Positions 2,818-8,777 of a stretch of 11,270 nt of DNA are shown piece after piece. Source of the stretch: Candidatus Omnitrophica bacterium UBA5776 (GTDB lineage: Bacteria; Omnitrophota; Gorgyraeia; Gygaellales; Profunditerraquicolaceae); the NCBI GenBank assembly GCA_002418595.1, contig DIEK01000062.1, positions 10,367 through 21,636 on the forward strand. Reading direction: 5' to 3'. Under the pieces are notes generated by a model that saw only the letters and a list, made by a program, of their open reading frames with translations, had not been told where the DNA came from and ran no database searches. The stretch's first letter is position 1, and each line of letters starts with the position of its first letter. A program made the translations under genes and the position numbers.

Positions 2818-4812
2818 CTATACCAATTCCCTGATCTGCTGTAAATGCAGTCTGGTCTCTTTTTCTCCTCTTAACGAGAATTCAGCGGCCCGGTGCAGGT
2901 CAAGCCAGAACAGGCCGGAAGTATCCGGATTGATAACAACGTCCGCCAGAGCTGCTTCCTTGCGCGCCAGTTCCGACTGCATATATTCCACGCTGCTGAA
3001 AATAAGGTCAAGGATATTCAGGCTCAGCCTGCTCTTCAGGAATCTCGCCAGCGCAGGGTGTCTCGACTGCTCCTGCGATATCTCTTCCTGCGCGCGTTCC
3101 AGCCCTTTGGACAATCTTTCCTTAGAAGGGGTAACGTTGACGGCTATTATCCTGCGCGCCCCGGACTGCACCAGCACTTCCACCGGCAGCGGATGAGCAA
3201 TCCCCCCGTCGAGCAAAATATCCCCACCGGAAATAAAAGGCCTGAATATTCCCGGCATAGAACAACTGGTCATTATCGCGTCCACCAGCGAGCCGCTTTC
3301 CAGCACGCGCGCCTCTTTCCTTCGTATATCGCTGGCGACGATCTTCAACGGCAGTTTCACGTCCCTGAAAGTCTTGTTCCCGAGGTGCCTTTTCAGGAAC
3401 CGGTAAAGCTTATTACCTTTTATAAACCCTGTCCAGGGAAATGTCAAGTCAATGAGTTTCCAGGCGCAGGTATAGTCTTTGAATTCAGCGGCAATCTCCA
3501 GAATCTCCCCGCTGGATTTACCGGTGACCCAGAGGCTGGCAATCACTCCCCCCATGCTGGAGCCGGAAATGACGTCTATCGGGACCTTCTCCTCTTCCAA
3601 CACTTTAAGAACGCCCAAATGGCAGAGCCCGTAGGCAAAACCGACGCCCAGGGCAAGGCCGGTAGTGCAGCCGCCGCTCTCTCTGGCAATGCGCCGCACG
3701 GCCAGGGAATACCCGGTTGCCGGGTTCTGCTCCGTCTCCAATCCTTCGGCCGGAGGGCCTATCACGGGCAGCGTGGCAAAAACGCTCCTGTTGAGCACGC
3801 CGGCTCTCTCCTCCGGGCGCAGACGCGCATATCCGTAATCGTTGACGATCAACTTTATATTCTCTCCGGAGAAAGATTTTTCTTTCTCCAGCTTGTCCGA
3901 GAAATTACCGGTCTTGCGCAATTCGGCGGAAGACGGCCCGCTTATCAGGTGAAGCGTTTGCGCCTGCCGCAAGAGCCCGGATACGAATTCGTCTCCGAAA
4001 GGCGGCAGGTCTATTATTATGTAATGGTATTTAGAAAACAGCGAACTGAGGATATCGACCACGGTAGCCGCCGATTCGTCTCCGGTACCGGAATAATTCA
4101 AACACAAGAAATCCAAGCCTTCCCTGCCTTTCATTATCATAGGAGAGACATCGAAACCGCGGTATTGCCTGTAATCAGACAGGTCAAGCTCGGGATAACA
4201 ATTCCCTGTCCCGAAAATGGCCGGCATAGCGTGCAGTTTATTCTTATGCCTGACTTCCACCACAAGGATGTTCTTTAAAGTCTCTCTGCGCAGACTGAAG
4301 GCCAGGTTGGCGGTGTAAAAAGTCTTGCCGCTGTTGGGGGACAGCCCCATCACCGCGATTATCTCCGTCTCGAAGACTTTTTTTCTCGCCGTCTCCCTGC
4401 TTCTCAAACGGCGCGAAAGCGTCCGGCTGAGATCAAGCCCCATACGCGGGATTCTCTCAAGAAGGACATCGAAATTCTCTCTTTTTATTATCACCAGTCT
4501 GCTGTCGTTGAAAGCCTCGGCCGTCACTGAATGCGATTCTCCGGTCAAGAGGGAAATAATGCCGAAATACTGCCCGCGGTGCAGGTAATCTATGAAAAGG
4601 TTCCTGCCGTGATCATCCCGGAGGTAAGCCGCCACCCTTCCGGAAAGAACACAATAGAAAGCTCCCGGAGGGTCTCCGTAATTATATATGATCGCCCCTT
4701 TGGGATAAGCGACGATATCGTATTTCCCCTCGAGCATCCGGTATTCTTCGGGGCTGAATCCGGCGAAAAAGGGAAGGCTTCTCAATATCTCAATACCGAA
4801 TTCAGGCGTCAT
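2818..4812 (-). CDS. Cyclic-nucleotide-binding-like / P-loop ATPase-like / patatin phospholipase fusion
   Basis: A 664-residue protein with three regions. Residues 10-125 have a CAP_ED-type beta-roll (AYPKGAIIYNYGDPPGAFYCV, then FGIISLLTGESHSVTAEA). In the binding cassette the usual GE..L and R[ST] are changed to GIISLL and HS, so the Glu and Arg that hold cAMP are missing. Residues 150-350 look like a MinD/BY-kinase P-loop domain: P-loop SPNSGKT (159-164) followed by TANLAFSL, and Walker B IIIDLPPFGDE (265-275); the Walker A' region is degenerate (VVEVRHK). Residues 383-640 are a patatin-like serine hydrolase: glycine loop GVGFAYG (389-395, with Tyr where Arg or Lys is usual), nucleophile Ser419 in GSSMG, and Asp535 in LLDGG. 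It would hydrolyse membrane phospholipids or lysolipids. No signal peptide is seen. The ATG forms an ATGA overlap with the GH1 gene. Confidence 0.88.
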   Translation of the reverse strand: MTPEFGIEILRSLPFFAGFSPEEYRMLEGKYDIVAYPKGAIIYNYGDPPGAFYCVLSGRVAAYLRDDHGRNLFIDYLHRGQYFGIISLLTGESHSVTAEAFNDSRLVIIKRENFDVLLERIPRMGLDLSRTLSRRLRSRETARKKVFETEIIAVMGLSPNSGKTFYTANLAFSLRRETLKNILVVEVRHKNKLHAMPAIFGTGNCYPELDLSDYRQYRGFDVSPMIMKGREGLDFLCLNYSGTGDESAATVVDILSSLFSKYHYIIIDLPPFGDEFVSGLLRQAQTLHLISGPSSAELRKTGNFSDKLEKEKSFSGENIKLIVNDYGYARLRPEERAGVLNRSVFATLPVIGPPAEGLETEQNPATGYSLAVRRIARESGGCTTGLALGVGFAYGLCHLGVLKVLEEEKVPIDVISGSSMGGVIASLWVTGKSSGEILEIAAEFKDYTCAWKLIDLTFPWTGFIKGNKLYRFLKRHLGNKTFRDVKLPLKIVASDIRRKEARVLESGSLVDAIMTSCSMPGIFRPFISGGDILLDGGIAHPLPVEVLVQSGARRIIAVNVTPSKERLSKGLERAQEEISQEQSRHPALARFLKSRLSLNILDLIFSSVEYMQSELARKEAALADVVINPDTSGLFWLDLHRAAEFSLRGEKETRLHLQQIRELV

Positions 4813-6026
4813 TCAGGCAACTCTCCCGTCCTGCAGACACGCGAGAACCACGATGCGCTTTCCCTCGCCCTGCGCTCCTGAGTGGCATAATCCACTTCCA
4901 CCAGCCCGAAACGAGGAGCGAATCCCTTATCCCACTCGAAATTATCCAGCAGCGACCAATAGAAATAACCTTTAAGATCAACCCCGGCTTTTATCGCGCC
5001 CGCGGCGGCTTCAAGATGACTTTTTATGAAACCGGCCCTTTCCCGGTCGTCGACTGTGGCTATCCCGTTCTCCTGTATGAGCACCGGCAACGCGTATTTC
5101 CTGAGGCTGAGCAGTATCTCCGACAGCCCGTGCGGATAAATATCCCATCCTAATGAACTCTTGTCCCAGGCATTATCGGAACGCGTCCCCGACAGAAGAG
5201 ACCGTAGGCCGGGGATTTCCACGCTCACAAGTTGCCGGGTGTAATAATTCAATCCGATATAATCAAGCGTCCCGGCATGAAAAGCGGCGTCCAGGAACAT
5301 GCGGTTGAACATCATATCACGCAAGAAGACTCCCAGTTGATTCCATATCCCGGGCTTCCAGGGCATAAAATACTGCATATGGTGAGCCACGCTTACCGAA
5401 GGCGCCGTATTCTTATAAACCCCGCACCTGTCATGTATTATGCGGTAAGCCAGTTCATGCGCCGAGAGCAGATTACGAGAGACCCGCACAGCTTTAATGA
5501 ACGAATGCTGCTGGGGAGGCCAGACGCCGGTAAGATAAGAATGGTAGGCGTAAACAAGCGGTTCATTTACGGTCACCCAGTAACGGGCTTTACCCGAAAG
5601 AACGCCGGTTATTTTTTCTATATAACGGCAAAAATAGGCCGTATTGGCGCGCTTCAGCCATCCGCCCTTGCGGCTGAACCAGGCCGGGCTGGTAAAATGA
5701 TAAAGAGTTACCACCGGTTCCAGATCGTTGGCGGCAAGAGCGTCCAGGACGGAAGAATAATGGTCCAGGGCGGATTGCGAAAAATGTCCTTCTTCCGGTT
5801 CTACACGGCTCCACTCGATCGAGAAACGGTGGGCGTTATGCCCCAGGGAACGGGCGAGGGCGAAATCTTCCTTATAAAGGGAGAAATGCCGGCAGGCGGC
5901 GGAAGACCTATCAAGCCCGCCGCCCGACTGCTCCCATTTCCACCAATCGTTGAAGAAGTTGTCTCCTTCCACCTGATGAGAGGAAGTCGCGGCGCCCCAG
6001 AGGAACCCTTCAGGAAAAGTAAACAT
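4809..6026 (-). CDS. GH1 family beta-glycosidase
   Basis: A 405-residue protein, slightly shorter than most GH1 enzymes, which begins as they do (FPEGFLWGAATSSHQVEG). The acid/base is Glu155 in TVNEP and the nucleophile is Glu319 in IQENG. Gln18, His110, Asn154 and the C-terminal YWSLLDNFEW segment (Trp357, Glu364, Trp365) fit the sugar-binding -1 subsite. The usual HW pair is HF here (YHFTSPAWF). The reaction is retaining hydrolysis of beta-glucosides, beta-galactosides or related sugars. No signal peptide is present, so it should be cytoplasmic. The start at 6026 is fixed by family alignment; I see no Shine-Dalgarno before it (AATAACGACAG). It is the first gene of the operon, downstream of a riboswitch and terminator, and is translationally coupled to the next gene by an ATGA overlap. 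Confidence 0.93.
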   Translation of the reverse strand: MFTFPEGFLWGAATSSHQVEGDNFFNDWWKWEQSGGGLDRSSAACRHFSLYKEDFALARSLGHNAHRFSIEWSRVEPEEGHFSQSALDHYSSVLDALAANDLEPVVTLYHFTSPAWFSRKGGWLKRANTAYFCRYIEKITGVLSGKARYWVTVNEPLVYAYHSYLTGVWPPQQHSFIKAVRVSRNLLSAHELAYRIIHDRCGVYKNTAPSVSVAHHMQYFMPWKPGIWNQLGVFLRDMMFNRMFLDAAFHAGTLDYIGLNYYTRQLVSVEIPGLRSLLSGTRSDNAWDKSSLGWDIYPHGLSEILLSLRKYALPVLIQENGIATVDDRERAGFIKSHLEAAAGAIKAGVDLKGYFYWSLLDNFEWDKGFAPRFGLVEVDYATQERRARESASWFSRVCRTGELPE

Positions 6027-6075
6027 CTGTCGTTATTATATTTAGCAGCCGGTTGAAAACGGAAGAGAAGTATTC

Positions 6076-6091
6076 TTATATTATAATATAA
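6076..6091. repeat. 16-bp perfect AT-only palindrome
   Basis: TTATATTATAATATAA equals its own reverse complement. It includes the candidate -10 box of the GH1-operon promoter (6080-6085) and sits just past the terminator. It could be an operator, or simply AT-rich promoter DNA. Confidence 0.6.
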
Positions 6092-6107
6092 ACAAAAAAA
6101 ATCCCAA
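6080..6107 (-). promoter_or_regulatory. Candidate promoter of the GH1 operon, overlapping the terminator
   Basis: The minus strand has a perfect TATAAT (6080-6085) and TTGGGA (6102-6107, four of six) with a 16-nt spacer. The predicted start is near 6073, giving a leader of about 47 nt before the GH1 ATG. The -35 box lies inside the 3' arm of the terminator hairpin. If active, the operon can be expressed without read-through from the riboswitch RNA. AT-rich DNA gives chance matches, so this is moderate evidence only. Confidence 0.45.
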
Positions 6108-6126
6108 CGTAAAAGTTGGGATTTTT
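6094..6126 (-). terminator. Strong intrinsic terminator behind the riboswitch
   Basis: On the minus strand a 12-bp stem (AAAAATCCCAAC / GTTGGGATTTTT, plus-strand 6097-6108 and 6115-6126) with a 6-nt loop is followed by a run of eight U (6094-6101, partly in the stem). It lies 11 nt past the riboswitch outer helix. The T run on the other strand could make it work in both directions. No upstream segment shows an obvious long antiterminator pairing with its 5' arm. Confidence 0.9.
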
Positions 6127-6137
6127 CTCAAGTATAA

Positions 6138-6177
6138 GCCGATAAAGGTGACAACACAACTTGCTGCCGCACCTTTA
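6138..6177 (-). promoter_or_regulatory. Candidate expression platform: competing pairings downstream of the aptamer
   Basis: The RNA segment ACCTTTATCGGC (plus-strand 6138-6149) is perfectly complementary over 12 nt to the transcript's 5' end (6291-6302). The same segment can instead pair, as CACCTTTA (6143-6150), with TAAAGGTG (6170-6177) to form an 8-bp local hairpin. The two pairings exclude each other, and the 5' strand is also needed near the aptamer's P1. This is the geometry of a structural switch, but how it would reach the terminator is not visible. Confidence 0.5.
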
Positions 6178-6178
6178 A

Positions 6179-6302
6179 CCGGTAGCCCAGCCACCATATT
6201 ACCCACCTCTTTTGACCGTCTTAGCGGCCTCAACTGAACGTGATGTAACGTAGGTCTGTGGCTTTGCGCCCCCCGGTTTTCCCGAGGTTTACCTTTATCG
6301 GC
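6179..6302 (-). ncRNA. GEMM-I (cyclic di-GMP-I type) riboswitch aptamer
   Basis: The RNA reads GGTAAACC, then hairpin CCTCGG-GAAAA-CCGGGG, then GGCGCAAAGCCAC, AGACCTACG, an extended P3 arm, TATGGTGG and finally CTGGGCTACCGG. These match the conserved blocks of GEMM-I RNAs (GCAAACC, GNRA-capped P2, GACGCAAAGCC, CCTAA with TATGG as tetraloop receptor, GGGTTACC). Aligned from memory to the Vibrio Vc2 aptamer, the ligand-contacting bases G20, A47 and C92 are all present. G20 is the choice expected for c-di-GMP rather than cGAMP. The P3 arm carries about 42 extra nt with its own hairpin (GGCCG/CGGTC). The predicted transcription start falls at about its first base and a terminator follows. It most likely regulates the GH1 operon. 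Confidence 0.85.
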
Positions 6303-6309
6303 TACAAAA

Positions 6310-6338
6310 AGTATACCTCATCTCCCCGGTTTTTTCAA
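6310..6338 (-). promoter_or_regulatory. Strong sigma70-type promoter of the riboswitch RNA
   Basis: On the minus strand TTGAAA (6333-6338) and TATACT (6310-6315) are separated by exactly 17 nt. The predicted start is at about 6302, the first base of the riboswitch outer helix (GCCGATAAAGG). That agreement between promoter and RNA structure supports both calls. Confidence 0.8.
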
Positions 6339-6365: not shown

Positions 6366-6866
6366 TTATTGCAGCGGGATAGTTTGTTCCGTTTCAACGG
6401 TCCCGGCTGAGGAAGTTAAATGCTTCTCCAGGACGGCCCAGGTCTTTGGGCCGACTTTGCCGTCTGCCGCCAACCCGTTGGATTTCTGGAATTCCTCTAT
6501 AGCCGCTTTCGTCTTTGGTCCCACTTTGCCGTCTATATTGCCGGAATAATACCCCGCGTTCTTAAGCGCGGTCTGGATATCCTGGGCGGAAGGTTTATAC
6601 GGCCCTGAAGGAGGTAAAGGTTCCAGTACCGGAACGGCCGCCGCGGAAACCGCTTCAGCCGCCTTCTCTCCGGCGACCGGTGTCACGGCGGGAAGCCTGT
6701 TTTCCTGTATCGCAATCTTATTATCCAGGGTCTGCCCCCCCAGAGAATCAGCCGACATAGGAGCCTGCATCTCCTCAAGACTCTGCTGTTTTTTATTGCA
6801 CCCGTTTACGGCCAGAAAAGATACGGCCACCGCTATCACCGCTGTGAAGATCTTAGTTCTGCCCAT
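6366..6866 (-). CDS. Lipoprotein with C-terminal peptidoglycan-binding domain
   Basis: A 166-residue protein. It has a signal peptide MGRTKIFTAVIAVAVSFLAV ending in VNGC with Cys23 as the lipidation site; a low-complexity linker (about 30-92) rich in Ala, Pro and Glu; and one PG_binding_1 domain (about 93-150) with GYYSGNIDGKVGPKTKAAI and FQKSNGLAADGKVGPKTW. It should tether a membrane to the cell wall. It carries no hydrolase domain. The start at 6866 follows AAAGGAG by 11 nt; in-frame starts at 6887 and 6929 would put extra charged residues before the signal peptide. It appears to have its own promoter and sits between the pyrimidine operon and the riboswitch. A 5-bp hairpin at its stop codon is too weak to call a terminator. 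Confidence 0.88.
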   Translation of the reverse strand: MGRTKIFTAVIAVAVSFLAVNGCNKKQQSLEEMQAPMSADSLGGQTLDNKIAIQENRLPAVTPVAGEKAAEAVSAAAVPVLEPLPPSGPYKPSAQDIQTALKNAGYYSGNIDGKVGPKTKAAIEEFQKSNGLAADGKVGPKTWAVLEKHLTSSAGTVETEQTIPLQ

Positions 6867-6933
6867 TGTTCCATCTGCTCCTTTCATGAATAATACTGGA
6901 GCCCCCTCACGCAAAATCCGGAGACTCATGTTT

Positions 6934-7130: not shown

Positions 7131-8777
7131 TCAAGGCTGTTTATCATAGGTGGAATAATAATACGGAGTGAAAGCCTGGAACTCGGCGGCGCAGGTATCA
7201 ACAAGCTTGAAATCCGGAAATATACCCAGAGATATTCTTAAAGAAGATATCTCTTCTTCCTTCTTGCCGGTCAACGAAGCGATCTGTTTATCGCTGAAAC
7301 CCATTTTTTTCGCTTCCAGAAGCGTATCCTTGTCGAGACCGCTTTCTCTCGTTCTCAAGCGCGTCTCCATCTCGACGATCTCCCGTATATTGTGCAGGAA
7401 CCAGTTGTCGATCCGGGTCAACTCATGGATCGTTTCGAGTTCCACTCCCGACCGGAAGGCATCCGCCAGCAGAAAAATGCGTTCCGGGGACGCCGTCCTG
7501 AGCCCGGCGTAAAGAGATTCCAGTTCCTCTCCCGCGCACCTGCCGAGGCTCTCCAAACCGTATTTCTTTATCTCCAGGGAACGCAGTCCCTTCTGCAGGG
7601 CCTCCTTGAAAGTCCTGCCGATGGACATAGTTTCCCCCACCGATTTCATGGAAACCGAAAGCACCGGTTCCGCCGAAGGGAACTTCTCAAAAGTGAATCT
7701 CGGTATCTTCACCACGCAATAATCTATGGCCGGCTCGAAACAGGCCGGGGTCTTCAGTGTTATATCGTTGGCGATCTCGTCAAGCGTATATCCGACCGCG
7801 AGCCTGGCGGCGATCTTGGCAATGGGAAAACCCGTGGCCTTGGATGCCAGCGCTGAACTCCTGGAAACGCGGGGATTCATCTCTATAACCACCATCCTGC
7901 CGTCGGAAGGATTAACCGCGAACTGTATATTGGAGCCGCCGGTCGAAACCCCTATTTCTCGTATACAGGCGATCGCCGCGTCGCGCATACGCTGGTATTC
8001 CTTGTCGGTAAGAGTCTGCGCGGGGGCCACAGTTATGCTGTCCCCGGTATGCACTCCCATCGGGTCGAGATTTTCTATCGAACACACGACCACGACATTA
8101 TCCTTGATATCGCGCATCACCTCCAGCTCATATTCCTTCCAGCCGGAGACCGATTCCTCTATGAGTATCTCGCTGATCATGCTCGATTCCAGCCCGCGCT
8201 TGGCCAAAACGCGGAATTCTTCGGCATTGTACGCTACGCTTCCGCCGGTGCCGCCGAGAGTGAAACTGGGCCGGATGATCACCGGAAAACCCACATCCTG
8301 CGCCACTCTCAATGCCTGTTGCAGATTATAAGCCTTGTTGCTTTTCGGCAGGTCGAGCCCTATCTTTATCATCGCCTCCTTGAAAAGCCTACGGTCTTCG
8401 GCCTTCTTGATGGCCTTGATATCGGCGCCGATCAATTCCACGCGGTATTTCCTGAAGACCCCGCGCGCGTCCAGTTCCACCGCCGTGTTCAAAGCGGTCT
8501 GCCCGCCGAGGGTCGGCAGCAGCGCGTCCGGCTTTTCCCGCGCGATGATGCGTTCCACGATCTCCGCGGTGATAGGCTCTATATAAGTCCTGTCGGCGGT
8601 ATCAGGATCGGTCATAATGGTGGCGGGATTGGAATTGACCAGAACCACCTTGTACCCCTCCTGCCTCAGCACCTTGCAGGCCTGAGTGCCGGAATAATCG
8701 AACTCGCACGCCTGGCCGATCACGATCGGGCCGGAACCGATAATAAGTATTTTTTTTATGTCGGTGCGCTTAGGCAT
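7131..8777 (-). CDS. carB: Carbamoyl-phosphate synthetase large subunit, N-terminal half only
   Basis: 548 residues that match CarB up to the end of its oligomerisation domain. They include the N-terminal opening ([26 protein letters not shown]), the [10 protein letters not shown] loop, GGQTALNTA, the ATP-grasp core ([59 protein letters not shown]) and then the helical oligomerisation region ending in YYYSTYD. This half makes carboxyphosphate and carbamate from bicarbonate, ATP and ammonia. Normal CarB is about 1070 residues; here a TGA comes exactly at the linker before the second synthetase unit, whose GGGPNRIGQG-type start is absent downstream in all three frames that I checked. Split CarB genes are known, for example in Aquifex and some methanogens. 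The start overlaps carA by 8 nt. Confidence 0.93.

Follow-up and report, generated by a model that had tools for sequence, protein, structure and literature searches.

The nearest known counterpart of the RNA described here is, by analogy, the merRNA of Bdellovibrio bacteriovorus, a non-coding c-di-GMP riboswitch that is described as having no conserved ORF after it and for which its authors propose a role as a c-di-GMP reservoir in this predator (PMC3627812). Two other reports concern riboswitches of this class. The Bc1 riboswitch of Bacillus thuringiensis has two terminators 28 bp apart, and downstream expression was reported to be unchanged by c-di-GMP in vivo (PMC11218506), and the C. difficile class I riboswitches Cdi-1-4, -5, -6, -7, and -10 are described as having no downstream coding sequence (PMC6200980). 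G20 of the Vc2 aptamer is given as a selectivity position for cyclic dinucleotides (PMC9262584). Most Omnitrophota have been proposed to be predators or parasites (PMC10066038); the terms "riboswitch" and "c-di-GMP" are absent from the main text of that genome survey of the phylum, and a search of the open-access literature for Omnitrophota or Omnitrophica together with a riboswitch found nothing. Riboswitches are usually read by default as the leader of the next gene; at the Omnitrophota locus considered here, comparison between genomes supports a separation of the RNA from its neighbour.

The RNA unit and its closing helix

The window, by which we mean the whole stretch of 11,270 nucleotides that was analysed, contains a single c-di-GMP-I aptamer according to Rfam, on the minus strand from 6303 to 6178. 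The original prediction had placed a GEMM-I aptamer between a minus-strand promoter of 17-nt spacing and a strong U8 terminator, and these parts are borne out: the RF01051 covariance search that it suggested gave 59.7 bits (gathering 35, E 6.7e-10) over the complete model (1-87), the scan for promoters found TTGAAA-17-TATACT (P1, 6338-6310, 10/12 consensus positions), and the terminator, T2, has a 16-bp stem (6130-6093). It had also put the start of the RNA near the predicted +1. Since the -10 hexamer ends 6-8 nt before GCC(GAT) in 77 of the 84 homologues that have a promoter, which places +1 at the closing helix described below, the RNA in the window probably does begin at about 6303. The fold of 6304-6090 has a calculated energy of -88.9 kcal/mol (z = -6.45), which none of 200 shuffled sequences equals.

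Table 1. Coordinates of the RNA unit and adjacent genes in the window, and of convergent genes next to elements of family f25
Feature	Position	Strand	Basis or remark
P1 -35 hexamer TTGAAA	6333..6338	minus	scan; same layout upstream of homologues
P1 -10 hexamer TATACT	6310..6315	minus	scan; spacing in homologues
c-di-GMP-I (GEMM-I) aptamer	6178..6303	minus	RF01051, 59.7 bits
5' arm AGCCGATAAAGGT	6291..6303	minus	RNA 5' end and aptamer 5' strand; includes ligand-recognising G
Local hairpin P4	6143..6177	minus	TAAAGGTG (6170-6177) pairs with CACCTTTA (6143-6150); alternative partner of 3' arm
3' arm ACCTTTATCGGCT	6137..6149	minus	exact complement of 5' arm; closes RNA
Intrinsic terminator T2	6093..6130	minus	16-bp stem and U8, arms AAAAATCCCAAC/GTTGGGATTTTTTTTG; scan, consensus match
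Promoter-like TTGGGA-16-TATAAT	6080..6107	minus	scan; overlaps T2 end
TATAAT	6035..6040	minus	ends 8 nt before GH1 ATG; probable leaderless GH1 promoter
GH1 glycosidase gene	4809..6026	minus	PF00232; neighbour, probably own transcription unit
cNMP-binding / P-loop / patatin fusion gene	2818..4812	minus	PF00027 and PF01734
Peptidoglycan-binding-domain gene, upstream of unit	6366..6929	minus	PF01471
Convergent genes, f25	L236:263-1300; L238:2-1000; L240:2-943		also at L237, L239, L241, L242

In the RF01051 alignment, a G (in AAAGG) occupies the position of Vc2 G20 and a C (in GCUACC) that of C92. The exact column of G20, the assignment of C92, and the rule that A20 denotes a cGAMP-type aptamer are taken here as assumptions; on these recognition residues the assignment of the aptamer to the c-di-GMP type of GEMM-I is supported, and a cGAMP-type ligand was rejected on the sequence, position 20 being G and not A. 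A GNRA tetraloop on P2 is absent, the P2 loop having five bases (GAAAA) in both the alignment and the fold, but this is a peripheral feature outside the ligand pocket. GEMM-I is common in this group, with a match in 180 of 195 genomes searched when that of the window is counted; the latter, an Omnitrophota MAG that is 83% complete, has one GEMM-I match and three GGDEF matches.

Not noticed in the original prediction were the TATAAT before the GH1 ATG and an inverted repeat that encloses the aptamer. AGCCGATAAAGGT (6291-6303) is perfectly complementary to ACCTTTATCGGCT (6137-6149), giving a helix of 13 bp whose arms are 141 nt apart across the aptamer, and the minimum-energy fold of the window RNA is closed by this helix. 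The helix passes through the conserved aptamer AAAGG and thus contains the G equivalent to Vc2 G20; because this ligand-recognising G is paired in it, formation of the helix and binding of c-di-GMP are predicted to be mutually exclusive. The 3' arm has an alternative partner in P4, which was found by the inverted-repeat search and is also present in open-state folds. T2 (6126-6097), in contrast, shares no strand in the window with either the closing helix or P4, and an antiterminator for it was considered and rejected, as neither the inverted repeats of at least 7 bp nor the folds contain a strand that sequesters its 5' arm. It should be noted that the 9 nt after the closing helix in the window are poor in U (5/9), which we count against a stand-alone RNA.

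Several other candidates were dismissed. A match to rnk_pseudo (6177-6091, 27.2 bits, gathering 55) falls on the terminator and is attributed to chance. T2 is not a generic terminator used throughout the genome, its exact sequence, which is palindromic and read on both strands, being present at one genomic site only. A small peptide inside the RNA was considered for the 67 of the 100 elements described below in which a suitable start was found; the three possible frames between the aptamer RUG and the 3' arm are about equally frequent among them (23, 23, and 21), and a conserved internal reading frame was not found in these 67. With regard to a trans target that the arms might pair with, sites matching the arm sequence CCGATAAAGG in 20 genomes number about 10 per genome, 2 of them from the element, versus about 5.5 for a reversed control of different composition.

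Related elements in the class

The anatomy of related elements, their conservation, and their gene contexts can be read directly from the genomes. A 3' pattern consisting of the 3' arm and T2 is present once in each of 28 of the 128 genomes of the order (reversed control, 0), and a 5' motif in 55 of these 128 and in 150 of 384 genomes of the class (reversed control, 8 of 384). An element was accepted as closed if its helix scored at least 9.5 and reached GG, reverse-complement duplicates having been removed. The resulting set of 100 closed elements represents 100 genomes and 22 family-level groups, and 46 of the elements are in the family of the window. Its sources are the 110 loci retrieved with only the 5' motif, of which 57 qualified, the 28 loci with the 3' pattern, of which 26 were included (the other two are cut by contig ends), 80 regions upstream of patatin-fusion genes, which gave 16, and L014. 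Because motif and synteny were the means of collecting homologues, the number of families is at least 22. Loci failing the cut-off include L246 and L270 (10.5, GG not reached), L254 (9.0), and L241 (8.5), the last of which has one mismatch in the 3' arm and otherwise resembles its kin in f25. In the remaining 5'-motif loci the helix score is lower or the pairing lies elsewhere. Some of these loci are classical GEMM units and others are not GEMM at all, and in some, such as L196, a terminator includes the 3' strand of the aptamer itself; with so many 5'-motif loci lacking the closing helix, the idea that it is universal in the GEMM-I RNAs of the class was rejected. Among the 57 closed loci found across the class, 54 pass the Rfam cut-off for RF01051 or RF03167 (L210, L252, and L263 fail), and the RF03167 matches indicate that relatives of some of these aptamers have already been seen by others.

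Two side observations were made during this collection. L186 and L190-L193, of families f24 and f51, carry near position 1500 a conserved non-GEMM element around CCCCGATAAAGGCAAACCCGACGGCAYCCACAACC, flanked by a possible inverted repeat, and large insertions are present in the P2 region of the aptamer in L078, L081, L089-L091, L094, L209, and L210.

A promoter matching at least 9 of 12 consensus positions precedes 84 of the 100 elements, as against 8.5% of shuffled sequences with kinship ignored, and 6 of the 16 elements without one belong to f45. At the other end, a separate hairpin terminator lies within 170 nt in 70 elements (21 of 500 shuffles, kinship again ignored), a U-run directly follows the helix (6 or more U among 9 nt) in 60 (10.8% of 1285 control windows), and one or the other is present in 93. 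The helix is closed in the minimum-energy fold of 98 elements and the closed form is favoured over the open by a median of 7.45 kcal/mol, a calculated value that excludes ligand and tertiary contacts. Because the loci were selected for the helix, only two-sided changes count as independent support for it; such covariation, counted with kinship ignored, occurs at pair 3 (A-U 76, G-U 14, G-C 10), pair 9 (C-G 99, U-A 1), and pair 11 (G-C 86, G-U 7, A-U 4, A-C 3), and the outermost pair is standard in 82 of 100. P4 was rejected as a universal component, its energy being in the lowest 5% of shuffles in only 41 of 100.

We regard it as extremely improbable that these elements are decaying or selfish leftovers, i.e. 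former riboswitches kept by chance or mobile units. No element was detected at the operon in those members of genera g13, g30, and g60 that were fetched, and in G039 (L154) an aptamer-less remnant lies upstream of GH1, in which the 5' arm and a covarying 3' arm form a short hairpin with a U-run; the element is therefore not essential everywhere. However, between the window and a sibling species (L035/G001) the RNA shows 2 differences in 212 positions, each of them located in the loop of P4, whereas GH1 differs at 84 of 1218 and the peptidoglycan-binding gene at 47 of 564, which indicates that the unit is under strong constraint, and both helix and promoter are kept across the 22 families.

The GH1 operon and other neighbouring genes

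The original prediction set the riboswitch ahead of a six-gene operon and described a regulon comprising a GH1 glycosidase, a patatin fusion, and a LeuT-like transporter as unfamiliar. Five of the six genes are ORFs, and the sixth proved to be a tRNA. The RNA probably does not mark a new GH1/patatin/LeuT regulon, and a role as expression platform of the operon is not upheld: a similar terminator and a leaderless GH1 promoter occur without the aptamer in relatives, T2 lies off the switching helix, and the neighbours elsewhere are unrelated or convergent. A regulon should not, we suggest, be named from the position of an aptamer alone.

These comparisons were made on stretches upstream of 80 patatin-fusion matches in 78 genomes, matches without an N terminus being left out; nearly all come from genomes without the exact 3' pattern, G024 being excepted. 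Rfam c-di-GMP-I matches are present in 14 of the 80, all with the 5'/3' pair, which L161 and L166 have without an Rfam match. The region before GH1 was inspected at 28 loci that fail as elements, comprising 27 without any element and the remnant L154. In most of these loci, though not in L120 and L125 among others, the peptidoglycan-binding gene leads directly into a T2-like hairpin, after which come TGnTATAAT and the GH1 start. Readable GH1 starts numbered 36 at loci with the element and 49 at loci counted as lacking it, two of the latter (L082 and L093) being elements truncated at a contig end. In the first group 30 starts, and in the second 43, have a TATAAT that ends 5-11 nt upstream, compared with 2 and 1, respectively, in a control window; an SD-like run precedes one start in each group. 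GH1 is therefore probably leaderless and transcribed from its own promoter. Both T2 and this promoter are recognized as consensus matches; their independence of the aptamer is supported by these sequences. In L014, L146, L148, and L167, the T2 loop contains extra hairpin sequence, yet the TCCCAAC/GTTGGGA arms are retained wholly or for the most part.

With respect to the proteins, the 2818-4812 fusion consists of a cyclic-nucleotide-binding domain, a ParA/MinD-like P-loop stretch, and a patatin domain. It has relatives in 113 of the 128 order genomes at E <= 1e-40, a relative from f24 has an AAA_31 match in the middle, and it is 96% identical to its counterpart in isolate WOFB22. The carB-like ORF at 7131-8777 (548 aa) contains only CPSase_L_D1, D2, and D3, which make up the large subunit's first half, suggesting that carB is split.

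The main alternative to a free-standing RNA is a classical cis-acting ON switch, in which c-di-GMP would block the closing helix and permit read-through into the GH1 operon, with T2 as a partial terminator. In the window's family the unit mostly remains adjacent to GH1; GH1 lies downstream of the element in most members of f1 and also in f4 (L160) and f7 (L076), and the patatin fusion follows it in f24. This synteny may reflect a cis link, and the closing helix with its U-run in 60 of 100 elements is a plausible ligand-controlled terminator. In addition, at L227 and L220 a ribosome-site-like (SD-like) run precedes the next gene and no T2 was detected, and in f39 a PilZ gene, identified by Pfam for L208 and by BLAST to L208 for L209 and L210, follows L208-L210, again with no terminator detected. 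These cases resemble cis switches, they count against a stand-alone RNA as does the synteny, and a cis role may exist in some lineages. On the other hand, the strands of T2 are outside both alternative helices and similar hairpins precede GH1 where there is no aptamer. With an SD-like run at 1 and a nearby upstream TATAAT at 30 of the 36 GH1 starts, a read-through mRNA would be poorly translated. Given also the unrelated and convergent neighbours in other families, we consider an ON switch unlikely as the general explanation.

To characterize these neighbours, 20 proteins were compared with Pfam, 16 from same-strand ORFs after the RNA and 4 from convergent genes, the same-strand ORF tested being the longest that starts within 450 nt and not always the first. 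The same-strand neighbours include the patatin fusion (f24), CorA, CobA, Thi4, an IlvD-type dehydratase, MerR, M48 and M20 peptidases, a methyltransferase, a pilin, PilZ, and a PAS-GAF histidine kinase, and four have no Pfam match; the Thi4 gene after L243 has a TPP riboswitch of its own. In 74 of 100 elements the start of a same-strand ORF lies no more than 250 nt away (none in 20, contig ends in 6), which again counts against the stand-alone reading, and some of those counted (L238, L239) lie opposite a convergent gene. In G024 the unit is apart from the GH1 operon (the upstream stretch of GH1 is L125) and faces a convergent gene that is rubrerythrin-like, just under the Pfam cut-off.

Convergent genes are also the basis of a further alternative, an antisense or interference device in which c-di-GMP would let polymerase pass the closing-helix terminator and continue into the opposite strand of a convergent gene or across the promoter that follows. 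The set includes five elements from f25; each has a U-run at its end, with no T2 found, and is followed by a convergent gene. The proteins encoded by these genes, and by the corresponding genes at two more f25 loci, are homologous, with 63-70% identity to the L238 protein, and of three that were scanned all have MshEN and two a GGDEF match. In L236, L238, and L239 the last codons of the convergent gene are within the RNA 3' arm, and for c-di-GMP-I riboswitches of other bacteria an antisense action has been proposed (PMC9943018). However, the majority of elements do not converge on a c-di-GMP gene, and T2, present in 70 of 100 including the window, should block such read-through, so that a device of this kind appears very unlikely. 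The occurrence of PilZ, GGDEF, and MshEN near the RNA does indicate that a c-di-GMP theme recurs without a fixed gene.

Possible function and relationship to known riboswitches

The explanation that we consider best, and on balance probable from the sequences, is that the unit from P1 to T2 is a discrete gene for a non-coding c-di-GMP-I aptamer RNA of about 210 nt in which the closing helix competes with the ligand. Separation from the neighbours is argued by their unrelated or convergent nature in other families, by the occurrence of the GH1 promoter and T2 without the aptamer, by the displaced unit of G024, and by the presence of the closing helix in 57 of 110 loci picked by the 5' motif alone. 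In the course that we infer for transcription, ligand binding, kinetics, and output, the RNA would be made 5' to 3' and the aptamer would form ahead of the competing 3' arm. With c-di-GMP present, the folded aptamer would hold the 5' strand and the 3' arm would pass into P4, leaving the RNA open and ligand-loaded; without ligand, the helix, favoured by about 7.5 kcal/mol in the calculation, would close and seal the pocket and the recognition G. In those lineages whose helix is followed by a U-run, closure would itself create a terminator with the aptamer as its loop, and T2 would shield the leaderless GH1 promoter from P1 transcription. Most likely, the RNA would act away from its neighbour, as a holder of c-di-GMP or as a c-di-GMP-gated regulatory RNA. 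The analogy with merRNA and the lack of a fixed target gene favour such a holding or trans role over cis control.

Compared with other c-di-GMP-I riboswitches (RF01051, and RF03167 for some homologues), the Omnitrophota RNA has the same aptamer fold and recognition residues but differs in that an anti-aptamer strand located a long way downstream is predicted to pair with the ligand-recognising G and to close the RNA as a whole, and in that it is not evidently the leader of the next gene. The conserved architecture would link ligand binding to closure of the whole transcript. The C. difficile RNAs are similarly transcribed c-di-GMP-I aptamers with no gene detected after them, but their reads are very low, the authors suggest that they are nonfunctional or do not act in cis, and the description given there includes no conserved architecture across a class (PMC6200980). 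Like the Omnitrophota unit, Bc1 has a c-di-GMP-I aptamer followed by a weak first and a strong second terminator; however, it is described with a ribosome site and a cis gene, and its T1 is an ordinary hairpin that does not enclose the aptamer (PMC11218506).

The closest likeness is to merRNA, which is also a non-coding c-di-GMP riboswitch RNA; the Omnitrophota unit has, by sequence, its own promoter and terminator. The two differ in that merRNA is 445 nt long, whereas the predicted Omnitrophota RNA is about 210 nt. We put forward tentatively, as a possibility rather than an expectation, that a free-standing c-di-GMP-binding RNA exists in at least 22 families of one Omnitrophota class, that its own ends pair through the ligand-recognising G so that each molecule is fixed during synthesis as either sealed and blind or open and loaded, and that it is a second and far more widespread case of the merRNA type, serving as a reservoir or record of c-di-GMP and not as a gene switch. 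If this is correct, the function of stand-alone riboswitch RNAs could be tested on many natural variants, and dedicated RNAs would bind c-di-GMP across a large uncultured and proposedly predatory group, in parallel with Bdellovibrio.
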